Source: a bacterium (GTDB lineage Bacteria; Bacteroidota; Ignavibacteria; Kapaibacteriales; UBA7675). From it: 64,000 nt of DNA. This document shows positions 42,621-64,000 of the stretch, piece after piece (position 1 is the stretch's first letter; every line of letters starts with the position of its first letter). Position numbers and translations under genes: made by a program. The stretch covers positions 62,001 to 126,000 of the forward strand of contig JAUIKM010000005.1 of the NCBI GenBank assembly GCA_030430495.1, in the 5' to 3' direction. The notes beneath the pieces were generated by a model, which was not told the DNA's origin, did not search any database, and saw only the letters and a list, made by a program, of their open reading frames with translations.

Positions 42621-44624
42621 ATGTTGCGTTCTCAGTCCAGTCTTTTCCGTTTTGTCTTCAGCGCTCTGCTCGCGTTCACAAGCGCGATGCCCGCGGCTTT
42701 TGCCCAGGTGACGATCATCGCGCCGCCGCAAGGCGTCGCCGTCAATGGCGGCGAGACCGTGCGCATCAAGTGGCAGGTCACGCCGCCCGGAGTACCCGTC
42801 AATCTGGCGTATTCCGACGACGACGGGCAATCCTGGCAGCTCATCGCGACAGATCAGCGCGGGCAGTTCTTCGACTGGCAAGTGCCCGCTTCGGTGACGA
42901 ACAAAGTTGTGATCCGCGCCGCGCGCAGCGCCGGGGGCGACCCGACGGCGGTGCGCGAAATTGCGCACGCGCGCGACGAGATCCGCTGCCTGCGATTTAA
43001 CGCATCCGGCGATCGTCTGCTGGCGGCCGCGCGCAGCGGCGCGGTGGACGTCTACGATCCGCTCGACGGCTCATTGATCGGCTCGGTTGCGCCGCCGGCT
43101 CCGGCCGAGATCAGTTATCAGGCGCAGTTCCTGGCCGACGACGCCCAGCTGGTTTTTACCCAGGGCAACGCGCTCTATCACGCCGTCGACTACAGCTCGC
43201 CGCCGCTTCGGCTCGACATTCCCGAACACGAAAACTTTATCCGCGCCGTGGACGCGCATCCGCAGCGCATGCTCACGGTTTCGGCCGATAATGGCGGCGG
43301 CGTCGCCGTCTTCGACATTGCGGCGGGAACGACGCTCAAGCACTTTGAGACGGCCGGCGACAGGCTCTACGACGTGCGTTTCTCTTCGAGCGGTCGTTAC
43401 ATCATCTACGCCGGCGACCGCGGCCTCATCTACGTGCGCGACTGGCAAAACGAAGCACCGACCGATGCGCCGGCCTACATCGGCGGCACACACGGCATCA
43501 TAAGCGAACGCCCGGACGGCACGCTCGACACCAACTCCCGCCTGATCTGGTCGGTAGCGATGAACGACGAGGAGACCTGGCTGGCCAGCGCCGGAGCCGA
43601 CAGAACCATCAGGCGCTGGAACTTTGCCGCGGGAATTCCCGAGGCGACGGAAATTTTCAGCGGACATGCTGCGCCCGTCTGGTCCACCGCAATTGTGCCG
43701 CGCGGCGACCGGCTTCTGTCCGGCTCGCTCGACGCCAGTATCCGCCAGTGGGACCCTTACGGTTCGTTTGAAATCGGCCCGACGCTTATTCACGGCGGTC
43801 AGGTGCTCACAATCGACTACTCATCCTCGCGCGACCTCATCGCCTCGGCCGGGCGCGACCCCTTCATCAAAATCTGGGAAAGCGGTTATTCGGCTGCCGC
43901 GGCCGACACGGTTGAACTTGCCATCGGCCGCCGCGAAATAGTGCTGCGCATTCCCCACATCGTTTCGCGGCCGGGCAAAATTGTCACGATACCCGTCATC
44001 CTGGAAAACCGCGCCGAACTCCAGTTGGACGAGCCGATTCGTCTGCAACTGACGCTCGAATCGCCGCGCACGCTGGCCGACATTCAGGGTGCATTTTACG
44101 ACAGTGCCGTGCCGGACTACGGCGAGCTTAACGCCCTGACCGACACGCTGGACCTGACCGTTGAAATCGACGGCGCGACGGACACTCTGAATTTTTACCC
44201 TGCGCGCGTTCTACACGGCACGCCAACCACCCAGCCGATCAGGTTTCGACGCGTGCCGGCGTCTGGTCCTGCGGCGCTGGACATTGTGCAGATTGACGGC
44301 AGTTTGTCGATTGAAGATGAATGCAATGACGGCCTCACGCCCCGCGAACTGATCCTGACCGGCGCTTCGACCTTGCAGATTGTGGATCTTTCGCCCAATC
44401 CGGCGGATATCAATACGACGCTGGCATGGCGCTACAGCGGGCGGCGCAACCTGATTCTGGCGATCCTCGACAACCAGGGCGCCCTCATTCGCCGCCAGGA
44501 AGTGAGTGATTCCGGCGGCAACTCCGTGCTGCTCGACCTGCGCGCGTTGCAGCAGGGCCAGTATTTTGTGCGGCTCAGCGACGGCAGACAGAGCGTCAGC
44601 CGCAAATTTGTCGTGCTTCGCTAG
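42621..44624 (+). CDS. T9SS-exported WD40-type propeller protein
   Basis: 667 residues. Signal peptide ends AMPAAFAQ. An Ig-like repeat (about 30-110, NGGETVRIKWQV, YSDDDGQSWQLI) is followed by a seven-bladed WD40-like propeller: blades are seen at DEIRCLRFNASGDRLLAAA, LYDVRFSSSGRYIIYAG, LIWSVAMNDEETWLASAG, APVWSTAIVPRGDRLLSGS and VLTIDYSSSRDLIASAG. A beta domain comes next and the T9SS tail (LSPNPADIN to SRKFVVLR) closes it. It is a surface or secreted binding protein. The Ig-like repeat resembles those in the giant protein at 4724-11068 and in the Asp-box protein. Confidence 0.87.
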   Translation: MLRSQSSLFRFVFSALLAFTSAMPAAFAQVTIIAPPQGVAVNGGETVRIKWQVTPPGVPVNLAYSDDDGQSWQLIATDQRGQFFDWQVPASVTNKVVIRAARSAGGDPTAVREIAHARDEIRCLRFNASGDRLLAAARSGAVDVYDPLDGSLIGSVAPPAPAEISYQAQFLADDAQLVFTQGNALYHAVDYSSPPLRLDIPEHENFIRAVDAHPQRMLTVSADNGGGVAVFDIAAGTTLKHFETAGDRLYDVRFSSSGRYIIYAGDRGLIYVRDWQNEAPTDAPAYIGGTHGIISERPDGTLDTNSRLIWSVAMNDEETWLASAGADRTIRRWNFAAGIPEATEIFSGHAAPVWSTAIVPRGDRLLSGSLDASIRQWDPYGSFEIGPTLIHGGQVLTIDYSSSRDLIASAGRDPFIKIWESGYSAAAADTVELAIGRREIVLRIPHIVSRPGKIVTIPVILENRAELQLDEPIRLQLTLESPRTLADIQGAFYDSAVPDYGELNALTDTLDLTVEIDGATDTLNFYPARVLHGTPTTQPIRFRRVPASGPAALDIVQIDGSLSIEDECNDGLTPRELILTGASTLQIVDLSPNPADINTTLAWRYSGRRNLILAILDNQGALIRRQEVSDSGGNSVLLDLRALQQGQYFVRLSDGRQSVSRKFVVLR

Positions 44625-47985: not shown

Positions 47986-50900
47986 TTAACGGGAAATTAC
48001 AATGCGCGCAACGGAGGAATAGTGCGAGCTTTCCAGTAAGACAAAGTATGCGCCGACAGGAAGGCCGGAGGCGTCCCAACGAAAGCTCTGGCGGCCCTCC
48101 ATAAGATAACCTTTAAACAGTACGGCCACCTGTTGCCCGCGCAGGTCCACCACGCGCAGCGTCGCGTCGACCAGCTCGGGATTGTTTAAGCTGATGTTCA
48201 CGTCGTTGACCGCCGGATTGGGCGTCACCTCCAGCTGCGGGCCGACAGGTTGCTGAATCCGGTCGCCCGCATCGGTAATGAGCGGTGTGGCGATCACAAG
48301 ACTGTGCATCGCCTGTTCGTCCGCCGTATACTGCGTCAAGGTCGTGGAGTTGTTGTAGATAACCTCGACATAGTGCGGCGTGAAATAAGTGGATGTGCCG
48401 CCGCTGTTAACGTATTCGACCAGATTGACGTTGTCGGTGAAACCCTCCGCATTGGCCGTGGTCGACGACACCAGTGTCATGGTCGCGTCATAGACATTAA
48501 CGGTCGCGTTGGTCAGTGCTTCGTCATCCTGGTTCTTAACGTTAAATGTCGTGGACCAGGTGCGTTCCAGCGTCGATCCGGCCGGTACGTTTTCCTTGTT
48601 GCTGTCGTAGAGGGAATTTAACATGTAGAGGTAGGCGTTGTTGCTCAGCTCGACGTCGTCGCCGGCGGAGCCGCTTATATCGGCGCCCTCAACGGTAAAG
48701 TTGGACACGCCGTCGGCCAGAATGCCGTCATCGCCGGAATCCGTAATGTGAAAGCCGTCGATCGTCAGGCCGGAGAGCGAGCCGCTTAACACAAGGCCGT
48801 CGCCGCCGCTCTCGTGCACGGCGCCGCCGTCGATGACTCCTGAAGCGCCGGTTAAATGCAGACCGTCGTCCGGCCCCACCAATGCAATCGCCATCCAGTC
48901 CACTGTGCCTTCAACGTCGGCGGTCCAGGTGACGTTATACTCCGGGTCGATGATCGAATTGCCAAAGATGAACGTGCCGCCGGGATCGATGTCGAGCGAG
49001 CCGGATGTGTACAGATGCACGTTTGAGTTGGTGATTTCAATCGTGCCGTTGGTCGAGAGAATGCTGCCGAAGAGATGCGCCTGGTTAAACACCAGCTCAT
49101 CGCCGTCGACGATGTTGGTGTTGATGGTCGTGTGCACCAGAGCGTTAACGATCTGGAGCGTTGTACTGTTGTCGTAGGAGTCGACAACCATCGCCGTAAT
49201 CAGCGTTCCCTGCGTGGCAGTCGTCGGCACCGTGCCGGAGAGGTTGACAGTCTCCGGGTTGATGAGCGTCGAGGTTGTTAAAGTCGTCGGGTTAACTTCC
49301 AGCTGCCAGCCGGTGATGGGCACGACGGTGGCGTTCAGCGTGTGGTTGGGCTCTTCCTCGATCGGAATGGCGTAAAACAGATTCTGGCCGGGCAGGTAGG
49401 CGGTTGTGTTGAAGTATAACACCTCGTCTTCATTATTGACGCTAGCGGTGCGGTCGCTGCCGCGCGGTTTGGCGGAGTTGGTCGACTCAACTAACCGGAA
49501 CTTGCGGCACTTGCCCGGCCCGCCGGCTATGCACTTTTTAACGTCCCGCTGCAGCGAACCGTCAAAACTGCCTATTTTAACGTCGTCGCACATAACGTCC
49601 ACAGAAGTGCCGACAGGTCGGTCATTTCTCTCCTCCGCATAGACGCGTGTGTACCAGGTTGACGATTTCTCGATCTTGGTGCCGCCGCCCGGTTTAGGCA
49701 CCGGCGTTTCATTCACATAACAGGTGCGGCAGATCGTATAGTGAACGTGTCTGCCTGTCGTATTTTTCTTGCGCTTGTACGATGATTTGCTCGTAGCCGT
49801 CGTGCGCGCGCCGTTGTCCAGATCGGTCCAGCCCGGATGGCGATTGCCGACCGCGGTGTCGCGATTGGCGGCCCACATTATTGCTTCCTTGATTGATATT
49901 TTTGAATCGCCGTTAACATCGGCGGAATCATTCTGGCTGCAGGCTTCCAGCCCCTTGTAAAAGTAGGTGCCGCAGCTGTCCCGGCGATACGTCGTCCGGC
50001 CGGAAGAGGATGAATAAACCAGCTCGCCGCTCAGCGTCTCGGATGTGCCGCCGTCTCCGGGCACGGACTTGTCCTGCATGGCGCTTTCCGAGGTTCCCGC
50101 GTAACAGGCTTCGATGCAGATACAGACTTCCTCTGCGCCGTTTTCAATGAGTTTGCACGCCAGTGTTTTCCACTTCATCTGACCGCCCTGCAGGTACGCG
50201 CTGCCGCCTTTGTCGCCGTGACCGCCGTAGAAAAAGTAGAGTTTGTCGCAGTCCTGCAGCGATTCCAGCATGTCGCAGACTTCCTGTTCGGTGGCGCCGT
50301 CCATGCCCGCGCCGCCGGTCAGTGTTTTAATGTTTTCATCGGCAATTTGCGGGCCGCGTGGATTGTTGTTTAAGTAGTTCTTGATGCGGTTGACGTCGTT
50401 GGCGCGCGCTACTTTTTCACCGCTGTTGTCGCCTTCTTCAGGTTTGCCGGTTACAATCAGCGCCCAGGTTGTTGTGACGGGATTGTCCTCGGGTGAATAG
50501 GTGACAACATCGTAGTGTGCGGCCTCATACGTACCGTAGATCTGATCGGCGCTGGTATTGTGGGCGTCCAGCAGGGAGGGGATTTCCAGTCCGTCGATCA
50601 GCGGCCAGGAGTCCGCGTCGAGCACTTCGTACGCGCCCGTCCAGACGTTAAACAGAATAAAACTGGTCGAGTGATTCCACTCGGCTATTGGTTCGTTGTC
50701 GAACCAGAAGAAGTAGGTCTTGGCGTCGAGCGTGCGGTCAATGATTCCCTCGTTGTCCGTCACCTGCGTGCCCACCGGCAGCCAGGTCGTCGGCTCACTG
50801 TAGTTGTGCAGAAAAGCCACCAGCGTGGACGCTATCGGGCTTGGGTTGATGAGATCATTCGTGATGGTCGCGATGGCGTCGCCCGTCGAAATGATCGTCT

Positions 50901-51309
50901 CGTTGACAAACACCGTTGAAAAATCCTGGTTGTTAAACGGATCCAGATCCGCCAGCGTGCTGGTGACAATCACCGTGTGCTGGCCGGTCTGGTTGGGCGT
51001 CCAGGGGCCGGCGGCGGCCACGGCGCTCTGTCCCATCGGCAGCGCGCCGAGCATGATGTTCTCGGGGCCGTAAACGACCATGCCGTTCATGTCTTCCACG
51101 ACAAATTCAACAATGACAAACGGTGCGTCGCCCGGGCCGTTGTTTGTTATCATGGCTTCCAGCGGAACGTCGAAACCGGCGTCCAGCGCTGCCAGATCCG
51201 GTGGGGAGATAACGTCGTCCACGCTGAGGTCGTAGTTCTGAGCTGCGGCGCTCGAGCTCATGAGTATCGCCGCCGCCAGTCCGTAGATAGTGCGTTTGAA
51301 ACAGTTCAT
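47986..51309 (-). CDS. T9SS-exported clan CD cysteine peptidase, array copy 1
   Basis: 1,107 residues. Signal peptide to about 24 (SSSAAAQ). Order: CARDB-like domain (25-135); propeptide-like domain (137-280) with KTYFFWFDN and WPLIDGLEIPS; clan CD peptidase domain (about 282-485) with WALIVTGK, catalytic His364 in FFYGGHG and Cys402 in CIEACYAG, then YSSSSGR; a perfect EF-hand loop DVNGDSKISIKE (464-475) directly after CGTYFYKGLEAC; a Cys-rich module (about 520-605) with CRTCY and MCDD; beta domains; a right-handed beta-helix (about 740-905); and a T9SS tail from VTPNPAVND. It should act as a calcium-influenced surface protease. Cutting specificity is unknown; the fold lies between caspase (C14) and legumain (C13) types. 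Confidence 0.82.
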   Translation of the reverse strand: MNCFKRTIYGLAAAILMSSSAAAQNYDLSVDDVISPPDLAALDAGFDVPLEAMITNNGPGDAPFVIVEFVVEDMNGMVVYGPENIMLGALPMGQSAVAAAGPWTPNQTGQHTVIVTSTLADLDPFNNQDFSTVFVNETIISTGDAIATITNDLINPSPIASTLVAFLHNYSEPTTWLPVGTQVTDNEGIIDRTLDAKTYFFWFDNEPIAEWNHSTSFILFNVWTGAYEVLDADSWPLIDGLEIPSLLDAHNTSADQIYGTYEAAHYDVVTYSPEDNPVTTTWALIVTGKPEEGDNSGEKVARANDVNRIKNYLNNNPRGPQIADENIKTLTGGAGMDGATEQEVCDMLESLQDCDKLYFFYGGHGDKGGSAYLQGGQMKWKTLACKLIENGAEEVCICIEACYAGTSESAMQDKSVPGDGGTSETLSGELVYSSSSGRTTYRRDSCGTYFYKGLEACSQNDSADVNGDSKISIKEAIMWAANRDTAVGNRHPGWTDLDNGARTTATSKSSYKRKKNTTGRHVHYTICRTCYVNETPVPKPGGGTKIEKSSTWYTRVYAEERNDRPVGTSVDVMCDDVKIGSFDGSLQRDVKKCIAGGPGKCRKFRLVESTNSAKPRGSDRTASVNNEDEVLYFNTTAYLPGQNLFYAIPIEEEPNHTLNATVVPITGWQLEVNPTTLTTSTLINPETVNLSGTVPTTATQGTLITAMVVDSYDNSTTLQIVNALVHTTINTNIVDGDELVFNQAHLFGSILSTNGTIEITNSNVHLYTSGSLDIDPGGTFIFGNSIIDPEYNVTWTADVEGTVDWMAIALVGPDDGLHLTGASGVIDGGAVHESGGDGLVLSGSLSGLTIDGFHITDSGDDGILADGVSNFTVEGADISGSAGDDVELSNNAYLYMLNSLYDSNKENVPAGSTLERTWSTTFNVKNQDDEALTNATVNVYDATMTLVSSTTANAEGFTDNVNLVEYVNSGGTSTYFTPHYVEVIYNNSTTLTQYTADEQAMHSLVIATPLITDAGDRIQQPVGPQLEVTPNPAVNDVNISLNNPELVDATLRVVDLRGQQVAVLFKGYLMEGRQSFRWDASGLPVGAYFVLLESSHYSSVARIVISR

Positions 51310-51468: not shown

Positions 51469-54400
51469 TCAGCGTTGTATTGCTATTCGTGCAACTGAGG
51501 AATAGTGCGAGCTTTGCAGCAGGACAAAGTACGCCCCGGCGGGAAGGCCGGAGGCGTCCCAACGAAAGCGCTGCCGGCCCGTCGTCAGGTAACCATTAAA
51601 TAACGTTGCGACGCGGCGGCCGCGCAGGTCGACTATCTGCACCGTTGCTTCAACAAGCTCGGGGTTGTTTAAGCTGATCGTCACGTCGTGGGCGGCCGGG
51701 TTGGGCGTCACCTCCAGCTGCGGTCCGATCGGGCGCTGCAGCTCGTCGCCCGCGTCCGTTATCAGCGGTGTGGCAATGACGATGCCGTGGACATCCTGCT
51801 CGTCCGCCGTGTACAGCGTCAGCGTCGTGGAGTTGTTGTAAATCACTTCAACGTAGTGCGGCGTAAAATAGGTCGTTGTGCCGCCGATGTTGCCGTATTC
51901 AACCAGGTCGACGTTATCCGTGAATCCGTCGGCGTCGGCCGCCATGGAGGAAACCAGCGTCAGCGTGGCGTCATAGACATTGACGGTTGCATTTGTCAGC
52001 GCCTCTTCGTCCTGGTTTTTGATGCTGAACACCGTTGACCAGGTGCGCCCGAGAATCGAGCCGGCCGGTACGTTCTCCTTGTTGCTGTCATAGTTCGAGT
52101 TTAACATGATCAGGAAGGCGTTGTTGGTCAGCTCAATGTCGTCACCGCCGGAATTGTCGATGTCTGCGCCTTCAACGGTAAAGTTGTACACGCCGTCGGC
52201 GTAAATGCCGTCGTCGCCGCAATCCGTGATGTGAAAACCGTCAATCGTCAGGCCGGAGAGCGTGCCGTTTAACACCAGGCCGTCGCCGCCGCTGTCGTGC
52301 ACGCCGCCGCCGTCGACAATGCCGGATGCGCCGTTCAGGTGCAGGCCGTCGCTCGGCCCCACCAGTGCGCCGCCGTGCCAGTTAACGGACCCTTCGATAT
52401 TGGCCGTGTACGTCACGCCGTATTCGGGATCGACAACGGCATTGCCGTAAACAAGTGCGCCGCCCGGTCCGATGTCTATTGCGCCGGATTGAAACAGGTG
52501 CACGTTGGAGTTGGTGATTAGAACAGTGCCGTTGGTCGAGAGAATACTGCCGAAAAGGTGCGCCTGGTTAAACACCAGCTCAGCGCCGTCGACCATGTTG
52601 CTGTTGATGGTCGTGTGCACCAGTGCGTTAACGATCTGCAGTGTCGTGCTGCCGTCGACGGCGTCGCACATGGTTGCAGTAATAATCGTTCCCTGCGTTG
52701 CCGTTGTCGGCACCGTGCCGGAGAGGTTGACGTATTCGGGGTTGACGAGCAGGGAGGTGGTCAGCGTCGTAGGATTTACCTCCAGATCCCAGCCCGGCAC
52801 CGGCACGACGCTTGCGTCTATCTGGTGGTTGGGCTCTTCGTCAACCGGGATGCTGTAAAACAGGTTCTGTCCGGGCAGGTAGGCCGTGGAGTACATGTGA
52901 ATCACCTCCTCGTCGCCGCCGCTGGACGTCGTGCGGTCGCTGCCGCGCGGTTTGGCCGAGCTGGTGGACTCAACCAGATTAAACTTCCTGCAGCCGCCCG
53001 GCGCTGCGGCGATGCACTTGAGTGTTTTTTTGCCGACTTTGCCGTCAAAGGTGCCGATTTTAACGCCGTCGCACATAATGTCCACCTTGGTGCCGGGATC
53101 GCGCGCAATGCGGGACCAGGCGTAAATGCGCGTGTACCAGGTGGTTGTCTTCTGGATTTCAACGCCGCCGCCTTCCGTTTCCACCGGCGTTTCGTTCAGA
53201 TAACAGGTCGGGCAGATCTTGTACTGGATCTTTTTTCCGGTCGTTTTTTTCGTGCGTTTAAATGTGAACTTGCCGGTCACCGTCGTGCGTGCGCCGTTGT
53301 CCAGGTCGGTCCAGCCGGGGTAGCGTTCGCTGACGAGTGAGTCGCGGTTGGCCGCCCACAGGATCGCTTCTTTAACAGTGATCTTCTGGTCCTTGTTGGC
53401 GTCCGCACTGTCGTTCTGGCTGCACGACTCCAGTCCTTTGTAGAAATATGTGCCGCAGCCGTTCTTGCGATAGGTCGTGCGGCCGGACGAAGACGAATAT
53501 GTTAACTCGCCGTCCAGCGTCTCGGTCGTGCCGCCGTCGCCCGGAATGGACTTGTCCTGCATCGCGCTTTCGGCCGTGCCCGAGTAACAGGCTTCAATGC
53601 AGACGCATACTTCCTTGGCGCCGTTTTCAATCAATTTGCAGGCCAGGTCCTTCCACTTCATGCTGCCGCCTTTTAATATGGCGCTGCCGCCGCGGGAGCC
53701 GTGACCGCCGTAGAAGAAGTAGAGTTTGTCGCAGTCCTTCAGCGATTCGAGCATGTCGCAGACTTCCTGTTTGGTTGCGCCGTTCATGCCGTCGCCGCCG
53801 GTCAGTGTTTTGATATTGCCGTCGGCAATCTGCGGGCCACGTGGGTTGTTGTTTAAGTAGTTTTTGATGCGGTTGACGTCGTTCTTGCGCGCTTTTTTCT
53901 CTCCCGCTTTGTTCTCGCTTCCGGGTTTACCAGTTACAATCAGCGCCCAGGTAGTCGTCACGGGGTTGTCCTGCGCCGTGTAGGTGACCGTCTCGTCGTG
54001 CCCCTTGTCGTAGCTGCCGTAGATCTGGTCGCTGCTTGTATTGTCTTCTTCAACAAATGACGGTATTTCCAGCCCGTTGATCAGCGGCCAGGAGTCGGCG
54101 TCGAGTACTTCGTACGCACCTGTCCAGGCATTAAACAAAATGAAGCTGGTCGAATGATACCAATCCGCTTCTTGTTCGTTGTCGAACCAGAAGAAATAGG
54201 TTTTTGCGTCCAGTGTTCGGTCGATAGTTCCCTCGTGATCGGTCAACTGCGTGCCGACGGGCAGCCAACTGTTGACCATGCCGTTGTTGTGCAGAAAAGC
54301 CACCAGAGTCGCGGCGATCGGACTCGGAGTGATCAGCTCGTTGGTGACGGTCCCGATTGCGATGTCCTTCGCAATAATCGTTTCATATACCATCGCCGTC

Positions 54401-54792
54401 GAGGCGGCCTGGTTGTTTGTCATGTCCAGATCCGTCAGCGTGCTGGTTACGACTACGTTGTGTTCGCCGACGGCATTGGGCGTCCACGGCGTGGCGGACA
54501 CCTCCGCGCTTTCGCCCTGGGCCAATGCGCCGATCAGGACACTTTCCGGGCCGTGAACAATTTCGCCGTCCAGGTTTTCAACGTAAAATTCAATGATGAC
54601 AAAAGCCGCATCGCCCGGGCCGTTGTTGTGCAAAAACGCTGAGAGTTCAACCGGAAAGCCCGCCGGTACTTCGGCAAAGTTCGGCGGTGAAATGATCTCC
54701 TCCACGGCGATGTCGAAGTCCTGAGCGACAAGCGCCGAGTTTAACAGCAGCAGCGCCGCAAGGCATGAAAAAAAGCGTGAGAAATGTTGCAT
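51469..54792 (-). CDS. T9SS-exported clan CD cysteine peptidase, array copy 2
   Basis: 1,107 residues from the ATG at 54792 (MQHFSRFFSCLAAL), behind AAGGAT; ten upstream codons are unsupported. The length and domain order equal copy 1, and this is its closest relative by eye. His364 (FFYGGHGSRGG) and Cys402 (CIEACYSGT) keep the same positions. The EF-hand loop is DANKDQKITVKE. Cysteines of the Cys-rich module are kept (CPTCY, MCDG, KCIAAAPGGCRK). The C-terminal tail RWDASGLPAGAYFVLLQSSHYSSVARI is almost that of copy 1. A 60-nt tract (54154-54213) is identical to copy 3. Role as for copy 1: surface-displayed protease, target unknown. Confidence 0.82.
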   Translation of the reverse strand: MQHFSRFFSCLAALLLLNSALVAQDFDIAVEEIISPPNFAEVPAGFPVELSAFLHNNGPGDAAFVIIEFYVENLDGEIVHGPESVLIGALAQGESAEVSATPWTPNAVGEHNVVVTSTLTDLDMTNNQAASTAMVYETIIAKDIAIGTVTNELITPSPIAATLVAFLHNNGMVNSWLPVGTQLTDHEGTIDRTLDAKTYFFWFDNEQEADWYHSTSFILFNAWTGAYEVLDADSWPLINGLEIPSFVEEDNTSSDQIYGSYDKGHDETVTYTAQDNPVTTTWALIVTGKPGSENKAGEKKARKNDVNRIKNYLNNNPRGPQIADGNIKTLTGGDGMNGATKQEVCDMLESLKDCDKLYFFYGGHGSRGGSAILKGGSMKWKDLACKLIENGAKEVCVCIEACYSGTAESAMQDKSIPGDGGTTETLDGELTYSSSSGRTTYRKNGCGTYFYKGLESCSQNDSADANKDQKITVKEAILWAANRDSLVSERYPGWTDLDNGARTTVTGKFTFKRTKKTTGKKIQYKICPTCYLNETPVETEGGGVEIQKTTTWYTRIYAWSRIARDPGTKVDIMCDGVKIGTFDGKVGKKTLKCIAAAPGGCRKFNLVESTSSAKPRGSDRTTSSGGDEEVIHMYSTAYLPGQNLFYSIPVDEEPNHQIDASVVPVPGWDLEVNPTTLTTSLLVNPEYVNLSGTVPTTATQGTIITATMCDAVDGSTTLQIVNALVHTTINSNMVDGAELVFNQAHLFGSILSTNGTVLITNSNVHLFQSGAIDIGPGGALVYGNAVVDPEYGVTYTANIEGSVNWHGGALVGPSDGLHLNGASGIVDGGGVHDSGGDGLVLNGTLSGLTIDGFHITDCGDDGIYADGVYNFTVEGADIDNSGGDDIELTNNAFLIMLNSNYDSNKENVPAGSILGRTWSTVFSIKNQDEEALTNATVNVYDATLTLVSSMAADADGFTDNVDLVEYGNIGGTTTYFTPHYVEVIYNNSTTLTLYTADEQDVHGIVIATPLITDAGDELQRPIGPQLEVTPNPAAHDVTISLNNPELVEATVQIVDLRGRRVATLFNGYLTTGRQRFRWDASGLPAGAYFVLLQSSHYSSVARIAIQR
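54154..54213. repeat. 60-nt tract identical to 57596-57655
   Basis: These 60 bases inside array copy 2 match array copy 3 base for base. They encode LDAKTYFFWFDNEQEADWYH in the propeptide-like domain. Synonymous positions are identical too, unlike the flanking sequence. Confidence 0.9.
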
Positions 54793-54845
54793 GATGTCGA
54801 AATCCTTCAAGATGTTTAACACTGGTCCGGTCGGCAGTGAAAAGG

Positions 54846-54901: not shown

Positions 54902-57900
54902 TTAACGTTGAATGACGATGCGGGCTACGGAAGCAAAGTGATCCGATTCGAGCAGCACAAAGTACGTCCCCGCCGCCGCCGCGCCGCAGTTCCAGCGGAA
55001 CAACTGATCGCCCGCCGGAATCCTGCCTTTAAACACATGCGCCGTTTCGCGGCCGCGCACATCAACCACGCGCAGGCTGCCGTTGAATGCGGCGTCGGAC
55101 CTGAAAGCTATCGCCGCAACCTTGTCGGCCGGATTGGGCGAAATGTTTAATGGCGGTCCGGCGGGACGCTGCGACGGCTGCGGCTCTTTGACATCGGTGA
55201 TCAGCGGCGTCGGGAACAGAATCTCGACGAGGTCCGGGCTGTCCGCCGTGTGCACCGTCAGCGTCGTGGAGTTGTTGTAAATCACCTCGACGTAGTGCGG
55301 AGTGTACCAGGCGGTTGTTCCGCCGATATTGCCGTACTCGACCAGATCGACCGAATTTGTGTAGCCCTCGGCGTCCGCCGTCAGCGCGGCGACCATCGTG
55401 GCCGTGGCGTCGTAAACATTGACCGTCGCATTTGTGAGCGGCTCGCCGTCCTGATTGATGATGTTAAAGGACGTAGTCCAGAGGCGGCCCAGCAGCGAAC
55501 CCGCGGGCACGTTTTCCTTGTTGCTGTCGTACTCGGAGTTTAACATCAGAATAAAAGCGCCGTTGCTCAGCTCGATGTCGTCGTCGCCCGAATTCTCGAT
55601 GTCCGCGCCCTTGATCGTGTAGAAGTAGGTGCCGTCCACAAAAATGCCGTCGTCGGCCGCGCCGGTGACGTGAATGCCGTCGATTGTCATTCCCGCCATA
55701 TTGCCGCTTAACTTCAACCCGTCGCCCTGGCTGTCGTGAATGCCGCCGCCTTTGACAAATCCCGCCGCGCCGTTGAGCTCCAGCCCGTCGTTGGGGCGTA
55801 TCAGCGCGCTTGCCATCCAGTTCAGCGTACCTGCGGCGGCCGCGTCGTAGGTGACGCCCAGATACGGTTCGATAATGCCGTTGCTGAAGTTCAGCGTGCC
55901 GCCGCCCGCGACGTCGACCGCGCCGCTCTGCATCAGGTGGATCGAGCCGTCCGTGATGTCGATGACGCCGGTCGTGGAAAGTATGCTGCCGTACAGATCG
56001 ATTTCGTTAAACACAATGTCGTCGCCGTCGACGATGTTGCTGTTAATCGTCGACTGAATGAGCGCATCCACGAAGTAGTAGGTGCCGCTGCCGTCGTCGG
56101 CGTCGATCGCCTCGCTGTAGATCGACGTGCCCGTGGTGGCCGTCGTCGGCACTGTACCGCTCAGGCTGTAGTACTCGGGATTGATAAGCACCGATGTTGT
56201 CAGCGTCGTCGGGTTAACACCCAGGTTCCAGCCGGGCGCCGGATTGACCGAAATGTCGATCGTGTGGTTCGGCTCTTCGTCGACCGGATTGCTGTAATAC
56301 AGGAACTCGCCCGGCAGATAAGTGGTCGTGTACAGGGTGAAAACCGATTCGTCGGGGTAGAGGGCGGTGGTCCGGTCGCTGCCGCCTTGTTTAATGCCTG
56401 GAACGGTCTTTTTTAAGTGGAATTTTTTCCAGTTGGCCGGCCCGGCGCCGATGCATTTAACTTCGTGGCGTTGCAGTTCGCCGTCGAACTCGCCGATCTT
56501 GGTGCCGTCGCAAATGATGTCCACCGTGGTTCCTTTTTTTCGTGGATTGTTGGACGTTGCATAAACGCGCGTGAACCAGGACGGCGTCTTTTTGGTGGTC
56601 GTTCCGCCGCCCTGTTTGGGCACTTCCTCGTAGGTTAAGTAACAGGTGCGGCAGAGGTAGTAGGTGATGTTGTCGCCGGTGTTTTTTAACCGCATATTGC
56701 CGCTGCGCTTTTTACGCGTCACCGTCACGCGGCTTTCGTTGTCCAGATCCGTCCAGCCGGGTTGTTTAACCGACACGAGGGAGTCGCGATTGGCGGCCCA
56801 CAGGATGGCTTCTTTGACTGATATCTTTTTGTCTTTGTTGACGTCTGCGCTGTCGGACTGGCTGCAGGCTTCCAGACCTTTGTAAAAGGGCGTACCGCAT
56901 TTGTTGATGCGCAGTGTGGTGCGGCCTTTGGAGCTGGAGTAAACCAGTTCGCCGTTGAGCGTTTGTTCCGTGCCGCCCGGTCCGGGGATGCTTTTTTCCT
57001 GCATCGGCTTTTCGGCCGAACCCGAGTAACAGGCCTCGATGCACACGCAGACTTCTTTGGCGCCGTTTTCGATGAGTTTACACGCCAGCTCCTTCCACTT
57101 CATGTCCGAACCCTTAAGAATGGCGCTGCCGCCGCGGGAGCCGTGGCCGCCGTAGAAAAAGTAGAGTTTGTCACAGTCTTTGAGTGCGTCGAGCGAGTCG
57201 CATATTTCCTGTTTGGTCGCGCCTTCCATATCGTCGCCGCCGGTGAGAACTTTGATGTTTTTATCGGCTATCTGCGGTCCGCGCGGGTTGTTGTTTAAGT
57301 AGTTTTTGATGCGGTTGACATCGTTTTTGCGCGCTTTTTTCTCGCCGGCTTTGTTTTTGCTGCCGGGCTCGCCGGTGACGATCATCGCCCAGGTTGTATT
57401 GACGGGCTGGTCGACCGGCGTATAGTTGACGGTCTCGTCGTGGCCTGTTGAATACGTGCCGTAAAACTGGTCCACCGTACTGTTGTCCGCCTCGAAAAAG
57501 GACGGGATTTCGGCTCCGTCGATCAGCGGCCAGGATTCGGCCTCGATGACTTCGTACTGGCCGTTCCAGGCATTAAACAAAATAAAACTTGTCGGATGAT
57601 ACCAATCCGCTTCTTGTTCGTTGTCGAACCAGAAGAAATAGGTTTTTGCGTCCAGCGTTCGGTTTACAGTGCCTTCGTGATCGGTAACCACCGTGCCGAC
57701 GGGCAGCCAGGTGGTCGTCTCACCGTAGTTGTGCAGGAAGGCCACGAGCGTCGCGGCGATCGGGTTGGGCGTAATCAGATCGTCGGTAACTGTTTCGATC
57801 GCCGACTCTTTGTTAATGAGAACTTCATATACTTCCACCGTGGACGTCAACTGATTGTTGCCGGGGTCCAGGTCGCTGAGCGTGCTGGTCACCACGACGG

Positions 57901-58234
57901 TGTGTTCGCCGAGCTGATTCGGGGTCCAGGGCGTGGCGGATATGTCCGCGCTTTCGCCCTCGGCCAGTGCGCCGATCAACAGTGTCTCCGGGCCGTGAAC
58001 GATATTGCCGTCGGAGTCCTCAACGTGAATATCGACAATCACAAACGCGGCGTCGGATGGACCGTTGTTAAGTATCAGCGCTTCAAGCGCCACTTCGTAT
58101 CCCGCCTGAACTTCGGACAGATTTCCAGGGGAGAGAACCTCCTCCACGGAAATGTCGAAATCATGAGCGGCGCTGCGCTGGAAGCCAAGTGCGGCAATGA
58201 TTAAACAAAAGATGCTGGTGCAGAGTGTGCGCAT
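54902..58234 (-). CDS. T9SS-exported clan CD cysteine peptidase, array copy 3
   Basis: 1,110 residues from the ATG at 58234 (MRTLCTSIFCLIIAAL), with CGGAGACA upstream; 13 earlier codons are unsupported. The domain order is as in copies 1 and 2, with His364 (FFYGGHGSRGG) and Cys402 (CIEACYSGS) at identical numbers. The EF-hand loop is DVNKDKKISVKE. In the Cys-rich module one of the conserved cysteines is lost (GPANWKKF where others have GKCRKF or similar). The T9SS tail has NISPNPADKV and ends SVARIVIQR. Divergence from copies 1/2 is moderate overall, but the 60-nt tract at 57596-57655 equals copy 2, pointing to gene conversion. Confidence 0.82.
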   Translation of the reverse strand: MRTLCTSIFCLIIAALGFQRSAAHDFDISVEEVLSPGNLSEVQAGYEVALEALILNNGPSDAAFVIVDIHVEDSDGNIVHGPETLLIGALAEGESADISATPWTPNQLGEHTVVVTSTLSDLDPGNNQLTSTVEVYEVLINKESAIETVTDDLITPNPIAATLVAFLHNYGETTTWLPVGTVVTDHEGTVNRTLDAKTYFFWFDNEQEADWYHPTSFILFNAWNGQYEVIEAESWPLIDGAEIPSFFEADNSTVDQFYGTYSTGHDETVNYTPVDQPVNTTWAMIVTGEPGSKNKAGEKKARKNDVNRIKNYLNNNPRGPQIADKNIKVLTGGDDMEGATKQEICDSLDALKDCDKLYFFYGGHGSRGGSAILKGSDMKWKELACKLIENGAKEVCVCIEACYSGSAEKPMQEKSIPGPGGTEQTLNGELVYSSSKGRTTLRINKCGTPFYKGLEACSQSDSADVNKDKKISVKEAILWAANRDSLVSVKQPGWTDLDNESRVTVTRKKRSGNMRLKNTGDNITYYLCRTCYLTYEEVPKQGGGTTTKKTPSWFTRVYATSNNPRKKGTTVDIICDGTKIGEFDGELQRHEVKCIGAGPANWKKFHLKKTVPGIKQGGSDRTTALYPDESVFTLYTTTYLPGEFLYYSNPVDEEPNHTIDISVNPAPGWNLGVNPTTLTTSVLINPEYYSLSGTVPTTATTGTSIYSEAIDADDGSGTYYFVDALIQSTINSNIVDGDDIVFNEIDLYGSILSTTGVIDITDGSIHLMQSGAVDVAGGGTLNFSNGIIEPYLGVTYDAAAAGTLNWMASALIRPNDGLELNGAAGFVKGGGIHDSQGDGLKLSGNMAGMTIDGIHVTGAADDGIFVDGTYFYTIKGADIENSGDDDIELSNGAFILMLNSEYDSNKENVPAGSLLGRLWTTSFNIINQDGEPLTNATVNVYDATATMVAALTADAEGYTNSVDLVEYGNIGGTTAWYTPHYVEVIYNNSTTLTVHTADSPDLVEILFPTPLITDVKEPQPSQRPAGPPLNISPNPADKVAAIAFRSDAAFNGSLRVVDVRGRETAHVFKGRIPAGDQLFRWNCGAAAAGTYFVLLESDHFASVARIVIQR
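57596..57655. repeat. 60-nt tract identical to 54154-54213
   Basis: Second copy of the tract, inside array copy 3 in the same orientation and at the equivalent protein position. Flanking bases differ at many third positions. Confidence 0.9.
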
Positions 58235-58300
58235 GATTGCTGTCTCCGAATGATGTGAAAAGGTGAGTTGCATTGCGGAGTCGCTCTCCGCACGCAGAAG

Positions 58301-58401: not shown

Positions 58402-61400
58402 TTAACGTTGAAGGACGATGCGGGCGACCGAAGCGGCGCCGTTTATTTCCAGTACCGCAAAGTACGCGCCGACAGGAGTCTCCGCAGCGTCCCAGGCCAG
58501 TTTGTGTTCGCCGGCGCTTAAACGTCCGCTGAAGGGACGCGCAACTTCGCGCCCGCTCAGGTCCAGAATGCGCAGGACCGCGGGGCCGGTGCGTTCCAGC
58601 GTGAAGCCCACCGCCACGTTGTTAAACGCCGGGACAGGCGTGACTGTTAACTCCGGACCGCTCGCCCGCTGCTGCGCCGGTCTGTCGCCGACGTCCGTAA
58701 TCAGCGGCGTCGCGATAACAATTTCGTGTACATTGGGACTGTCGGCCGTGTACAGCGAAATCGTCGTTGAACCGTTGTAGGTTACTCCGATAATGTGCGG
58801 CGTGTAGAAAGCCGTTGAGCCGCCGGCGCGCGCGTATTCGTACAGGTCCAGCGTACTGGTGAATCCTTCGGCGTCGACGGTCAGTGTCGTGACGGGAGCG
58901 GCGTTGGCGTCAAGGACGGTCACCGAGGCATTCGTCAGCGGCTCGCCGTCCTGGTTCTCGATGTAGAACGCCGTCGACCATGAACGCACGAGAATGGAAC
59001 CGGCGTCCAGCACTTCTTTGGACTGATCGTAGAAGCTGTTTTTCATGAATACAAAGGCGGAGTTCTGCAGCACGAGGTCGTCGCCCGTCGAGCCGGTGAT
59101 ATCCGCGCCTTCAACCGTAATGTTAAACGATCCGTCAATTACCATGCCGTCGCCGCCGGAGTTGCTGATCTCGAGTCCGTCGAATGTTAAACCAGACAGG
59201 TTGCCGGTGAGTGTGACGCCGTCGCCCTGGCTGTCGTGGATGCCGCCGCCTTCGATGAAGCCGTCGGCGCCGTTGAGGTACAGACCGTTAACGGGACCGA
59301 TCAGGCCGCTGCCGCGCCATTCCAGCGTACCGGCGATATTGGTCCAGTAGTCGACGCCGCCCGCCGGTTCGATGATCGAATTGCTGAACTTCAGGGTCCC
59401 GTTCGCCGCCACGTCAAAGTCGACGTTGTCCTGCAGGTAGTGGATGCTCGCGTCGGTGATGTCGATCAGGCCGTTGCTCGCGTAAATGCCGCCGTAGAGA
59501 TCGACTTCGTTAAACGACAGGTTGCCGCCGTCGACGATATTGGAGTTGATCGTGGTGTGGATCAGGGCGTCCACCAGTTGATAGGTTAAACTGCCGTCGT
59601 CCTGGTCGGTCATCGTTGCGATAATCGCCGTGCCTACAGTCGCCGTCGTCGGCACAGTGCCCGTCAGAACAACCGTCTCGGGGTTAACCAGCACCGAAGT
59701 TGTCAGGGTCGTCGGGTTGACGCCCAGGTTCCAGCCGGCAACGGGGTCGACGCTCGCGTTGATCGTGTGGTTGGGTTCCTCTTCTATGTGGGTCGCCCAG
59801 TAGAGATTCTGACCGGGGAAATAGGAGTGCGTGGCCTGATATACAACGGCGTCGTCCTGGTTCAGCAACGAGGTGGTGCGGTCTTTGGTCACCGGTTTGA
59901 TCGTGTTGGACGATTTCTTGATTTTAAACTTTTTGCAGCGCGCATTGGCCGTTGCGATGCAGACCTTGGTTTTCTTCGGCAGTTTGCCGTCGAATGTGCC
60001 GATTACGACGCCGTCGCAGCAGAGGTCGACTTTGTCGCCGGTTTTGCGTGGATTGGTTGCGTAGGCGTAGACGCGCGTTATCCAGCTCGTGTCGCGCATT
60101 GTTTCGCCAGTGCTTCCACCGTCGCCGTTGTTGTCGCCCGCGTCTTCCTCGGTCTGCTGGGGCGGCGTCTCGGTGATGTAACAGGTTGAGCAGACGGTGT
60201 ATTTAATCGACTTGCCGGTTTTGCTGCTGCTGCTTTTTTTGCTGCGTTTGCCGGTAACCGTGGTTGTGCTGCCGTCGTCGAGGTTCGTGCAGCCGGGCAT
60301 CTGATTGGCGACGAGCGGGTCGTTGGCGGCGGCCCACAGCATGGCCTCTTTGTTGCTGACCTTGCCGTCGCCGTTGGCGTCGCCCTGCAGATCGGCCGTG
60401 CAGCTTTCGAGCCCTTTGTAGTAGGGCGTGCCGCAGCCGTCGATCCGTTTGGTGACTTTGTCCGAGGAGGAAGAGTAGGTCACTTCGCCGCTGAGTCCTT
60501 CCTGTTCGCCGCCTTCGCCTTCCTGCGTTTTTTCCATCAGCGCCTCGCAGGCCGTACCGGAGTAACAGGCTTCGATGTTGGCACAGACCTCTTTCGCGCC
60601 GTTGTCGATGAGTTTACACGCCAGCTTTTCCCAGCTCATCTTGCCTCCGCGCAGGCAGGCTTCGCCTTTTTTGCTGCCGTGGCCGGCGTAGTAGATGTAG
60701 AGTTTGTCGCAGTCCTCCATAGCGTCCAGGGCGTCGCAGACTTCCTGCTCGGTTGCGCCGCTGAAGTTGGTGCCGGTCAGAACCGTGATGTTGTCGTTGT
60801 CGATCTGCGGTCCGCGCGGGTTGTTGTTAACATAATTGCGGATGCGGTTGACGTCGTTTTCACGTGCGCGTCGTTCGCCGCCGCCATTGATGTTTTTACC
60901 GCTGAATATTAAACACCAGGTGGTATTGGCCGGTTGATCGATGCCGGTGTAGTTGACAATTTCCGAGGGGTGGCTGACGTAAGTGCCGTAGACGCGGTCC
61001 GGACTGGCATTGCCCTGCTGCGTGAACGTCAGAATCTCCGTACCGTTGACGACGGGCCAGCTTTCAGCCTCCGTGACGGTGTACGCGCCGGTCCAGGCGT
61101 TGACGTACACATACGTGGCCGGGTGCATCCAGTCGGCATCCTGTACGTTGTCAAACCAGAAAAAGTAGGTTTTGGCCGTCAGCGTGTTGTTGAAGGTCTC
61201 GGCGTAGTCCGCTACCGAAGCGCCGACGGGCAGCCAGGAATTAACCGCCTGGCTGTTGTATAGAAAAGCCACCAGCTGATCGGCGTACTGGCTCTGCGGA
61301 ATGACGTTGTTTAACACGGTCGTGATTGCCTGGTCCTGCGTGATCAGGACCTCGTAGGTAAACACATCGTTGGTCAACTGATCGTTGAGCGGATTCAGAT

Positions 61401-61764
61401 CCGTCATTGTGCTTGTCACGACAACGCGGAAGTAACCGGTTTGCAGGGGCGTCCATGGCGAATAACTCTGGGCAACAAAGGAATCGCCCGCTCCAAGGTT
61501 GTCGACAAAGATGTTTTCAGGGCCGTGCACAACTTCACCGTCTTCCGTTTCCACGCGGAATTCAACAATGGCAAAAGGCGCATCGGAAGGTCCCAGGTTT
61601 GTTAACACGGCTTCCAGATCAATCGGGTAACCGAGCGGGTGTTCACTCTCGTGTTTGGGTGAGGTGATTTCCTCGACCATAATATCGTAATCCTGCGCCT
61701 CCGCGCTCAGGCAAAAGCTGAACGCCACAGCGGCGCAGACCAGGATTTGACGCAAATTTCTCAT
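58402..61764 (-). CDS. T9SS-exported clan CD cysteine peptidase, array copy 4
   Basis: 1,120 residues; signal peptide ends LSAEAQ. The same architecture but more diverged. Catalytic His362 stands in YYAGHGSKKG and Cys400 in NIEACYSGT, again 38 apart. The EF-hand loop is DANGDGKVSNKE, the nearest to the textbook form. After CSTCY there is an acidic, Gly-rich insert (QQTEEDAGDNNGDGGSTGE) where the other copies have a short linker. The Cys-rich module keeps LCCDG and ARCKKF. The beta-helix and T9SS tail (TPVPAFNNV to SVARIVLQR) are present; the tail has VPAF in place of the usual NPA. Export by T9SS is still likely. Its target may differ from copies 1-3. Confidence 0.8.
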   Translation of the reverse strand: MRNLRQILVCAAVAFSFCLSAEAQDYDIMVEEITSPKHESEHPLGYPIDLEAVLTNLGPSDAPFAIVEFRVETEDGEVVHGPENIFVDNLGAGDSFVAQSYSPWTPLQTGYFRVVVTSTMTDLNPLNDQLTNDVFTYEVLITQDQAITTVLNNVIPQSQYADQLVAFLYNSQAVNSWLPVGASVADYAETFNNTLTAKTYFFWFDNVQDADWMHPATYVYVNAWTGAYTVTEAESWPVVNGTEILTFTQQGNASPDRVYGTYVSHPSEIVNYTGIDQPANTTWCLIFSGKNINGGGERRARENDVNRIRNYVNNNPRGPQIDNDNITVLTGTNFSGATEQEVCDALDAMEDCDKLYIYYAGHGSKKGEACLRGGKMSWEKLACKLIDNGAKEVCANIEACYSGTACEALMEKTQEGEGGEQEGLSGEVTYSSSSDKVTKRIDGCGTPYYKGLESCTADLQGDANGDGKVSNKEAMLWAAANDPLVANQMPGCTNLDDGSTTTVTGKRSKKSSSSKTGKSIKYTVCSTCYITETPPQQTEEDAGDNNGDGGSTGETMRDTSWITRVYAYATNPRKTGDKVDLCCDGVVIGTFDGKLPKKTKVCIATANARCKKFKIKKSSNTIKPVTKDRTTSLLNQDDAVVYQATHSYFPGQNLYWATHIEEEPNHTINASVDPVAGWNLGVNPTTLTTSVLVNPETVVLTGTVPTTATVGTAIIATMTDQDDGSLTYQLVDALIHTTINSNIVDGGNLSFNEVDLYGGIYASNGLIDITDASIHYLQDNVDFDVAANGTLKFSNSIIEPAGGVDYWTNIAGTLEWRGSGLIGPVNGLYLNGADGFIEGGGIHDSQGDGVTLTGNLSGLTFDGLEISNSGGDGMVIDGSFNITVEGADITGSTGDDLVLQNSAFVFMKNSFYDQSKEVLDAGSILVRSWSTAFYIENQDGEPLTNASVTVLDANAAPVTTLTVDAEGFTSTLDLYEYARAGGSTAFYTPHIIGVTYNGSTTISLYTADSPNVHEIVIATPLITDVGDRPAQQRASGPELTVTPVPAFNNVAVGFTLERTGPAVLRILDLSGREVARPFSGRLSAGEHKLAWDAAETPVGAYFAVLEINGAASVARIVLQR

Positions 61765-61930: not shown

Positions 61931-64000
61931 TCAGCGCAATACTCTGATTCGCGTGAGCGCTTCCGTGCTTCCGACCTGCAGAATGCAGTAGTATCCGCCG
62001 CTGCTCCAGCGGCTGGTATTTATCTGCATGGTGTTAATGCCGGCGGGCATGGCGGGCATGCGTCGGCTTTCCACGATGCGGCCATGCGCATCAAAAACCG
62101 TGCATTGTCCTTCGCCCGCCTGCGTAAGTTCAAAGGTCAGGTTGACGCGGTCGCCGGCCGGATTCGGAAATACTTCGACATCGGGCCGGATGCGCGGCGA
62201 CGGGCCGGGCTGCGGCGCATCCGTTACAATCGGCGTCGTCATCACAATCGTTTCGGTGTTGAGGTCGTCGGCCGTGTACGCCTGCACGTAGTTTGTTGTG
62301 TTCCAGGTGATCTGCAGGCTGTGCGGCGTGAAGTTGTAGAAGGTGTTGCCGATGCGGCCGTATTCCGTTAACTCCACATTGGGCGTATTGCCCTCGGCAT
62401 CCACCAGCAGGTTTGTCACCACGGTTCCATAGGCGTCCAGAACGGCAACATTGGCATTCGTCAAAGCCTCGCCGTCCTGGTTAAGCACTATGAATGAGGT
62501 GGTCCAGTTTCGCAGCAGAATGGAATTGACATCGGCCGTCTCCTTGGCGGCGTCGTAGTAGGAGTCGAGCATGCTGACAATCGCACCGTTAATTAACACC
62601 ACGTCATTGCCGGTGGAATTGGTAATATCGGCGCCGCCTACCACGCAGTTGAAGGCGCCGTTTGCCACCAGTCCGTTGTTGGTTGCATGACTGATCTCCA
62701 CGCCGTCGAAAACAAAATTGGCAAAGTCCCCGGTCAGAGTTAAACCGTCCCCATGACTGTCGTGAATGCCGCCTCCGTTGATATGTCCCGACGGACTGTC
62801 GAGCAGCAGCCCGCCGTCGGGCCGCACGATCATGGATGCGTCCCATTCCAGCGCGCCTTCGACGTTGAGCGTCCACGTGGTGCCGAGTTCACAACTGATA
62901 CTCGAGTTAAACATGCGCAGCGTGCCGGTGGAGTGGATCGTGCAGTTTGCCGACGTCCGCATGTGAACCGTCGATTCCGTCATGTTGACAAGTCCGGTGT
63001 AAACATTGATGGCGCCGTAGAGGTTAAGTTCGTTGTACGAGGCGATTTCACCGTCGTCCAGGTCGTTGTTCTGTGTGCGCCGCACGAGCGCGTTAACATA
63101 AACTTCGGAGGTGTCGTTCTCCGTGGTGTCGCGTATCTCGGCAAAGATGCGCGTGCCGTAGACCGCCGTGGTCGGCACGTCTCCGGTGACGAACAATTCG
63201 ACCGGGTTAATATATCCCGCGGCGGCCATGGTCGTGTGGGAGAGAGCCAGTCCCCAGCCCGAGACCTGATTGATGGTGCTCCGGATAGTATTGCCGGTGG
63301 CGGCTTCAATCGGAAAAGCGTGAAAAATGTGTTCGCCCGGATCGTAGGTGCGCGTGCGGTATTCGGCGTGTGTAAAGTTGTCTTCGAACTGCACCTGAAC
63401 TCGGTCGGACGCTCCCTTGGGCGCGACTTTTTTGGCCGGTTTAAAGCTCGGTTTGTGGCGGCAGGGTTTGTCCAGCGTGGCAAAGCAGATTTTTTTGTTG
63501 CCGGTTACTTCGGTCGGAGGGAGTGTGCCGACCTTTTCTTTGCCGCAGTAGATGTCAATTGTTTTTTTTGTGGTTCGACTCTTGCCTTTGGAGTTTGCGT
63601 ACAGGCGCGCTTCCCAGACGCGACTCTTTTTAACTTTTGGTTTTTTGCCTCCACCTTGTGGGATGTATTTCTGCCTGATAAAACAGGTGTTGCAGTAGAA
63701 GAAGTCCACGCCTTCCTCGGATTCCCGGCTGTTTCCCGGTTTTGCCTTGCGGACAAAAGTGAATACTTCATCATCGTCGATCGTGCCGTACTGCGGATTG
63801 CGTCCGCCGACGTCCGGGTCGATTTCGGACGCCCAGATAATCGCTTCGCGCACGGATATTTTGTTGTCTTCATCGCGATCCGCGTTTGGATCCTGCGAAC
63901 AGGTTTCAAGCCCCTTGTAAAACTGCGTGCCGCAAGGGTCCTTGCGTTTGGTCTTTTTCCCGGCAACCGAAGAAACGACATATTCGCCTTTTAACTGCTC
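61931..64000 (-). CDS. T9SS-exported clan CD peptidase paralogue, array copy 5 (cut by window end)
   Basis: Only the C-terminal 689 residues are visible; the frame is open through base 64000. Reading from the edge, EQLKGEYVVSSVAGKK aligns with SGELVYSSSSGR of the other copies, then CGTQFYKGLETCSQ and the EF-hand loop DRDEDNKISVRE follow, so the catalytic His and Cys must lie beyond the window. The Cys-rich module (CNTCF, IYCGKEK, ICFATLDKPCRH), the beta-helix (GGGIHDSHGDGLTLTG) and a T9SS tail (VFPNPAGDR) are complete. It is the most diverged copy. Whether the active site is intact cannot be judged. An ATG-less internal GTG at 63853 is not the start. Confidence 0.78.
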   Translation of the reverse strand, partial: EQLKGEYVVSSVAGKKTKRKDPCGTQFYKGLETCSQDPNADRDEDNKISVREAIIWASEIDPDVGGRNPQYGTIDDDEVFTFVRKAKPGNSRESEEGVDFFYCNTCFIRQKYIPQGGGKKPKVKKSRVWEARLYANSKGKSRTTKKTIDIYCGKEKVGTLPPTEVTGNKKICFATLDKPCRHKPSFKPAKKVAPKGASDRVQVQFEDNFTHAEYRTRTYDPGEHIFHAFPIEAATGNTIRSTINQVSGWGLALSHTTMAAAGYINPVELFVTGDVPTTAVYGTRIFAEIRDTTENDTSEVYVNALVRRTQNNDLDDGEIASYNELNLYGAINVYTGLVNMTESTVHMRTSANCTIHSTGTLRMFNSSISCELGTTWTLNVEGALEWDASMIVRPDGGLLLDSPSGHINGGGIHDSHGDGLTLTGDFANFVFDGVEISHATNNGLVANGAFNCVVGGADITNSTGNDVVLINGAIVSMLDSYYDAAKETADVNSILLRNWTTSFIVLNQDGEALTNANVAVLDAYGTVVTNLLVDAEGNTPNVELTEYGRIGNTFYNFTPHSLQITWNTTNYVQAYTADDLNTETIVMTTPIVTDAPQPGPSPRIRPDVEVFPNPAGDRVNLTFELTQAGEGQCTVFDAHGRIVESRRMPAMPAGINTMQINTSRWSSGGYYCILQVGSTEALTRIRVLR

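Follow-up and report, generated by a model that had tools for sequence, protein, structure and literature searches.

Organisation of the array

A tandem array of seven genes, each encoding a protein of 1107-1137 aa, reaches the end of the window (the whole stretch of DNA analysed, 64,000 nucleotides). Four genes lie fully within the window, one is clipped by its end, and two lie beyond it on the contig (Table 1). The catalytic core of copy 1 is encoded at 50093-50235 on the minus strand.

Table 1. Coordinates in the window of the array genes and of the features of copy 1.
Feature	Position	Strand	Description
Copy 1	47986..51309	-	1107 aa; signal-like start, CARDB/DUF11-like region, N-domain, clan CD peptidase, beta-helix, T9SS sorting tail
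Copy 2	51469..54822	-	1117 aa; 72% identity with copy 1
Copy 3	54902..58273	-	1123 aa; 59% identity with copy 1
Copy 4	58402..61764	-	1120 aa; 51% identity with copy 1
Copy 5	61931..64000	-	1137 aa, clipped by window end; copies 6 and 7 next on contig (L009)
Type IX secretion sorting tail, copy 1	47995..48222	-	PF18962, E 4.4e-11, and TIGR04183
Right-handed beta-helix region, copy 1	48595..48870	-	PF13229, E 4.1e-8
Peptidase domain, copy 1	49810..50481	-	aa 277-500
EF-hand-like loop, copy 1, DVNGDSKISIKEA	49882..49920	-	Strict loop pattern; weak Dockerin/EF-hand Pfam matches
Arg442, copy 1	49984..49986	-	Invariant in 8/8 Glu-type domains; aligned with caspase-3 S1 Arg (SWR) in 8/12 alignments
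Catalytic Cys402, copy 1	50104..50106	-	Invariant in family alignments
Glu400, copy 1, two before Cys	50110..50112	-	Column of caspase-3 Gln (QAC); caspases have a loop-L4 S1 residue here
Catalytic His364, copy 1	50218..50220	-	Invariant in family alignments
N-domain, copy 1	50482..50904	-	aa 136-276

From the N terminus onward, the array proteins consist of a signal-like start, a CARDB/DUF11-like stretch, the N-domain, the peptidase, a beta-helix, and a type IX sorting tail. When copies 1-4 were scanned, the T9SS C-terminal sorting domain TIGR04183 scored above cut-off in copies 1-3; the sorting-domain profile scan reported no T9SS tail for copy 4. For the first 136 residues, the CARDB label was not retained: the sole match was to DUF11 in copy 3 (E 0.0026), and beyond it there is a resemblance only. 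Near the array, 42621-44624 encodes a protein with WD40 repeats that ends in a type IX sorting tail. The same genome contains two C25 genes; their frames span 1336 and 2022 residues, and the shorter one is of PorU size.

The peptidase is the best conserved, that is, the slowest-changing, domain of the array proteins. Among the seven copies, the peptidase averages 63% identity and the N-domain 51%, with 38-54% across everything outside the peptidase. NG86 dN was lower than dS in all seven copy pairs computed (of 21 possible), for example 0.14 vs 0.94; these values are rough because dS is near 1.

Catalytic dyad, family profiles and predicted fold

The active-site motifs described in the original prediction were confirmed. 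The spacing of 38 residues between His364 and Cys402 in copy 1 was confirmed and holds in 7/7 copies, three of which lie outside the window or are clipped by it. The dyad of copy 4 is at 362/400, as predicted; the numbering 364/402 claimed for copies 2 and 3 holds from internal ATGs, and the longest ORFs give 374/412 and 377/415, respectively. In alignment A3, which comprises 19 N-domain-plus-peptidase rows, the dyad (His-Gly and Cys) is invariant in 19/19 rows. The predicted legumain-like Glu before the Cys is present as E-A-C in all seven copies (human legumain, EACESG; human caspase-3, QACRG), and the residue after the Cys is Tyr, Phe, or His. The statement that caspase-like proteins usually have Asp at this position agrees with 35 of 35 C14 loci with a recognisable motif. 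The 41 loci examined were those labelled C14 or placed in the C14 clade, six of them had no motif, and the recount was done without the D/E/Q motif filter.

The segment after the Cys follows the described order. The D.N.D...E loop within it, claimed as part of a caspase-like order, is not caspase-specific and also occurs in bacterial C13. Searched with a strict pattern, which overlooks near forms, the loop was found in 7/7 array copies, 18/25 relatives, 11/38 C14 rows, 2/5 C13 rows, 0/3 C11 rows, and 0/4 C25 rows. Legumain-like and caspase-like features do occur together in this active site.

Profile searches placed the domain close to both families. For Pfam C13, the domain of copy 4 scored 23.8 bits (E 3.8e-5; cut-off 22.8) and copy 3 scored 24.5 bits in the genome search; within the array only these two reach the cut-off, by about 1 bit, and copies 1, 5, 6, and 7 fall below it. 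For Pfam C14, the domain of copy 6 scored 24.0 bits (E 3.6e-5; cut-off 21.4), copies 4 and 5 were below the cut-off, and the scan gave no match for the domains of copies 1 and 7. At E ≤ 0.01, 15 of the 19 A3 rows matched PF01650 (C13) and 12 matched PF00656 (C14). Against PDB sequences, the array profile matched legumains best (E 0.0056), with metacaspase-4 ninth of 15 (E 0.16).

An AlphaFold2 model of copy 1 aa 129-517, built on 19 aligned rows, had a mean pLDDT of 80.8. The closest PDB chain among the 998 aligned was legumain 4n6o (Z 17.7, rmsd 2.7 over 192 residues), followed by PIGK of the GPI transamidase (Z 16.9; 3.2, 192), metacaspase-4 (Z 16.9; 3.2, 200), and caspase-7 (Z 16.1; 3.5, 191). 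Since Z differences below 1 are ties, the sole real gap is that of legumain over the caspases. Together with the Pfam E-values given above, the Z of 17.7 to legumain indicates more than a chance resemblance. Judged from the model and the His/Cys dyad, the array peptidase is a clan CD (caspase/haemoglobinase-fold) domain; by profile it stands between the C13 and C14 families of Pfam. Some enzymes with the C13-type fold are ligases, and the top rows included both the GPI transamidase (Z 16.9) and ligases of the peptide asparaginyl type; these matches are what could be cited for surface transpeptidases or ligases, like PIGK or plant peptide ligases, in place of proteases, a reading that we consider very improbable.

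The N-domain and the separate branch

The N-domain is about 140 residues long, lies N-terminal to the peptidase, and did not figure in the original prediction. Modelled alone, it had a pLDDT of 89.5. Searches of 19 members against Pfam gave only isolated matches of one member each, the best at E 0.0038 to an unrelated-looking family; Foldseek against PDB gave 0 matches at E ≤ 0.001 (239 up to E 10), and the best VIA-align match against PDB had a Z of 4.2. A PepSY/propeptide fold had been guessed from sequence and was dropped, having no support from Foldseek or VIA-align; a family missing from such a listing excludes nothing.

A profile of the N-domain, built without C13 sequences, matched 7 of 296 Bacteroidota genomes. 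Eight matches are in the genome of the array (the array and L008). In all six matches outside it, the N-domain is either fused with a clan CD peptidase or encoded immediately before one, and this peptidase is C13 in 5/6 cases. The N-domain and a C13 domain share one ORF in G116, G094, and G141; in G145 and G161 (2/2 genomes of one genus), a free N-domain ORF stands just before a fused N-domain/C13 gene; and in G219 the N-domain is in one frame with a family peptidase. A further locus, in G335, has the N-domain at the end of a 411-residue ORF, and the next gene is clan CD-like, with VGHG and SCHSG (the peptidase was recognised by eye). Together with the six outside matches, this locus brings the N-domain paired with a peptidase to 7/7 outside loci examined. 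None of the six outside matches, from 296 genomes, was on a C14-clade locus.

At L054:403-3024 (G145) and L050:403-2874 (G161), a single stop codon and AAAGGAG lie between the free N-domain ORF and the ATG of the N-domain/C13 gene. The free N-domain ORF and the gene downstream are a possible inhibitor/protease pair. Streptopain is known to have a prodomain-like inhibitor. By analogy, and because each N-domain that turned up is either fused with a clan CD peptidase or has one encoded next to it, we read this domain as a putative prodomain or a cognate inhibitor for the peptidase.

The closest relative of the array, from a Kapaibacterium MAG, is 52% identical; the other relatives, from Bacteroidota, Ignavibacteriota, and Armatimonadota, are 23-30% identical. 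The set is not the four copies originally counted but seven copies together with these relatives. Twelve loci in genome contigs came from a motif-seeded search that misses distant members. A3 matched at E ≤ 1e-5 in 85 of 294 genomes of the class, and the matches covered both domains in six of the 294 (G000, G421, G437, G475, G416, and G511). Some relatives, namely L013 (bacterium MAG 3_bin.102), L015 (Ignavibacteriae MAG), and L021 (Lewinellaceae MAG), carry two to three consecutive N-domain-plus-peptidase modules per protein, with three in L013. In the genome of the array, L011:768-4736 (contig C73) encodes a 1323-residue protein in which a caspase-like domain is combined with a part resembling a RecG-type ATPase, with NB-ARC, and with TPR repeats; it has weak PADLOC matches and resembles signalling or defence proteins.

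L174:738-4313 (G511) is a full-length array homologue in which KYLGHS and TTSR replace the dyad motifs, and its sequence marks it as a probable pseudo-enzyme with array-type architecture. Dyad-lost relatives, L174 and L036 (DAPY), would fit adhesive surface proteins that keep the caspase-like fold without catalysis. For the array itself we hold this to be extremely improbable, given the intact dyad in 7/7 copies and a peptidase that is the slowest-changing domain.

Two trees were built from the peptidase domains. The first contained 82 domains (7 array, 27 relatives, 5 bacterial C13, 36 C14, 3 C11, and 4 C25). For the second, C11 was dropped and human legumain, human caspase-3, and Arabidopsis metacaspase-4 were added. 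The C14 rows were cut with a filter requiring D, E, or Q two before the Cys. Two C14 loci, L064 and L066, which lack the motif at which domains were cut out, were kept out of the trees, as were the loci L034, L038, and L088-L090 and most C11 and C25 matches. In the first tree, C25 formed a distant separate clade (100/99), C11 was separate (99/96) with long branches, and the relatives L022 and L023 were placed within C14. In the second tree, 32 family domains formed one side of a branch at 99/93, and the array grouped with L012 at 100/99. The nesting inside a characterised C13 or C14 clade that would have spoken against the original prediction was not seen: the family lay outside these clades when analysed with C13, C14, and C25 sequences and, in the first tree, C11.

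The trees bear on two simpler classifications. According to the first, the array proteins are ordinary divergent bacterial caspase-like proteins (C14B, orthocaspase type) of Arg/Lys specificity, in which the Glu is a near-neutral Asp-to-Glu change. The PF00656 matches of 12/19 A3 members, Asp in 20/32 family rows, and a union of the family with C14 that was not rejected (p-AU 0.467 and 0.587) are consistent with it. The alpha1 Asp (D305) is also kept; however, legumain and caspase-3 have Asp in this column as well (one alignment), and D305 therefore does not discriminate. Against it, 40 C14 rows including caspase-3 and metacaspase-4 formed a clade at 93/91 that excludes the family, PF01650 also matches 15/19 A3 members, the model is nearest legumain, and 0/6 outside N-domain matches are on a C14-clade locus. 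We regard it as unlikely.

According to the second, the array is a bacterial branch of the true legumain family C13, with Asn-specific cleavage or ligation. The Glu two before the Cys, legumain as the best PDB profile match (E 0.0056) with a fold Z of 17.7, and the N-domain common to the C13 loci of G116, G094, G141, G145, and G161 argue for it, as does the G116 C13 protein, which has the EF-like loop and whose 1040-residue frame ends like a T9SS cargo (by eye). However, human legumain groups with the five bacterial C13 rows at 96/89, apart from the 32-domain family; array copies over the C13 cut-off are 3 and 4 only, by about 1 bit; and the legumain Arg44-His45 pair is unmatched. This makes a C13 assignment quite improbable.

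The order of the family, C13, and C14 groups is another matter, and either C13 or C14 may be nearer to the family: support was 91/59 for the family with C13 (first tree) and 38/0 for C13 with C14 (second tree). As regards the separate subfamily suggested originally, a clade of its own (99/93) supports it, and the Glu as its mark and the set of four copies did not hold. The N-domain marks the subfamily better than the Glu does. The data support a genuine clan CD branch of its own, in which C13 and C14 features are mixed and which the N-domain defines best.

The S1 pocket and comparison with known clan CD peptidases

The residue two before the Cys is Asp in 20, Glu in 9, and Thr in 3 of the 32 family domains. 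It changed three times on the tree (twice when scored as E vs not-E). The Glu is thus a nested trait, gained about twice or more on the tree, and most relatives have Asp. Both types occur in the genome of the array, which has the Glu-type array and L008 with IDACHSGG. The nearest relative of L008 is L016, from a Candidatus Kapaibacterium MAG that additionally encodes L012, of Glu type, and two long paralogues of Thr type. In the Kapaibacterium MAG G296, the long paralogues L167 and L168 have VTACHSG, with Thr in place of Asp/Glu at the S1 position. The L017 protein contains one Glu module and one Asp module, and has Glu without the L5 Arg.

We take legumain Glu187 to be the residue at the position of the flagged Glu, and MALT1 Asp462 and TbMCA2 Asp211 presumably stand two before their Cys. 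The dyad Cys of caspase-7 is Cys186, its Gln184 is an S1 residue, and MALT1 Asp462 and TbMCA2 Asp211 are S1 residues on loop L4 like Gln184 (PMC4357240). In 12/12 alignments, legumain and all eight Glu-type rows had Glu in the column of the caspase-3 Gln. The caspase-3 Arg of SWR fell on Arg442 for all eight rows in 8 of the 12 alignments, for six rows in two, and for none in two. Among 74 invariant columns (of 238) in the eight Glu-type rows, only three are Arg, and Arg442 is one of them. The Asp-type rows shown have no Arg in the Arg442 column (one alignment). Four of the Asp-type rows (L008, L016, L018, and L171) have an Arg one place beyond it (WTR/YTR; one alignment), which weakens the contrast: an L5 Arg may not be peculiar to the lineage with Glu.

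Legumain Glu190, after the Cys, is described as a further tuning residue (PMC9604545). It is not kept in the array. The RH pair is kept in 4/5 bacterial C13 rows and is lacking in the array copies. Equivalents of legumain Arg44/His45 in alpha1 were also sought; one alignment had Arg302 at His45, the register was shifted in others, and the equivalence was set aside because the alpha1 register is unstable between alignments. From the aligned positions of the Glu and of Arg442 we infer that the S1 pocket of the array lineage has changed, with a possible shift to Asn/Asp cleavage.

The interpretation that we favour, with moderate confidence, is that the array encodes seven exported, zymogen-like clan CD cysteine endopeptidases of a third branch beside C13 and C14, with an S1 pocket that may accept Asn/Asp. 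The proteins would be made as zymogen-like precursors and leave the cell via the type IX system, the beta-helix and CARDB-like parts would anchor or display it on the cell surface, and the N-domain would work as prodomain or cognate inhibitor. Most members of this putative third branch have Asp at the S1 position, as in metacaspases, and probably cleave after Arg/Lys. Bacterial caspase homologues are described as cleaving after basic residues (PMC6426788). The array lineage would combine a Glu at S1, as in legumain, with an Arg on loop L5 that is invariant and stands where caspases have their S1 Arg, and its pocket may therefore carry both charges, like that of legumain, and prefer Asn/Asp at P1.

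A stronger version is doubtful: a third clan CD family whose cognate domain inhibits the peptidase in cis and, where a separate gene encodes it, also in trans, and in which one lineage independently built a legumain-Glu/caspase-L5-Arg S1, giving Asn/Asp-specific exported proteases. If the bacterial branch had a legumain- or caspase-charged S1, it would show how a specificity switch can occur within one family; the switch would be visible inside one family because Asp-type and Glu-type paralogues share one genome. Our literature search (bacterial legumain, T9SS caspase-like proteins, Kapabacteria) had most subscription journals outside its scope and returned nothing on the family; the N-domain partner is previously undescribed, and the bacterial family is little known.

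Among known systems, gingipain and PorU (MEROPS C25) share clan CD membership, an extra N-terminal domain, and the type IX export predicted for the array proteins, but the dyad spacing is 34 in 4/4 C25 rows vs 38 in the array, and their clade is distant. Animal caspases (MEROPS C14A) are alike in fold (caspase-7, Z 16.1), and the array L5 Arg with the following GT.[FY] aligns with SWR....GSWF of caspase-3 (one alignment). Unlike them, the array proteins have Glu in place of Gln161, are multidomain and predicted to be exported, and have no identified p20/p10 cleavage site. Metacaspases and orthocaspases (MEROPS C14B) share the fold (metacaspase-4, Z 16.9), the GHG and DAC motifs of family relatives, and, in 11/38 C14 rows, the EF-like loop; however, they form their own clade, the array has Glu against their S1 Asp, and none of the six outside N-domain matches from 296 genomes was on a C14-clade locus. 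Legumain (MEROPS C13) differs in its separate clade, its C-terminal LSAM prodomain, of which no counterpart was identified in the array proteins, its Arg44-His45 pair, which has no match in the array, and Glu190, where the array has Tyr/Phe/His after the Cys. It is nevertheless the best fold match (Z 17.7), shares Glu-Ala-Cys, and has a similar first strand (WALIV.G vs WVVIVAG; one alignment). The N-domain, common to bacterial C13 proteins and the array, links bacterial C13 to the family and offers a way to test how zymogens of clan CD are controlled.
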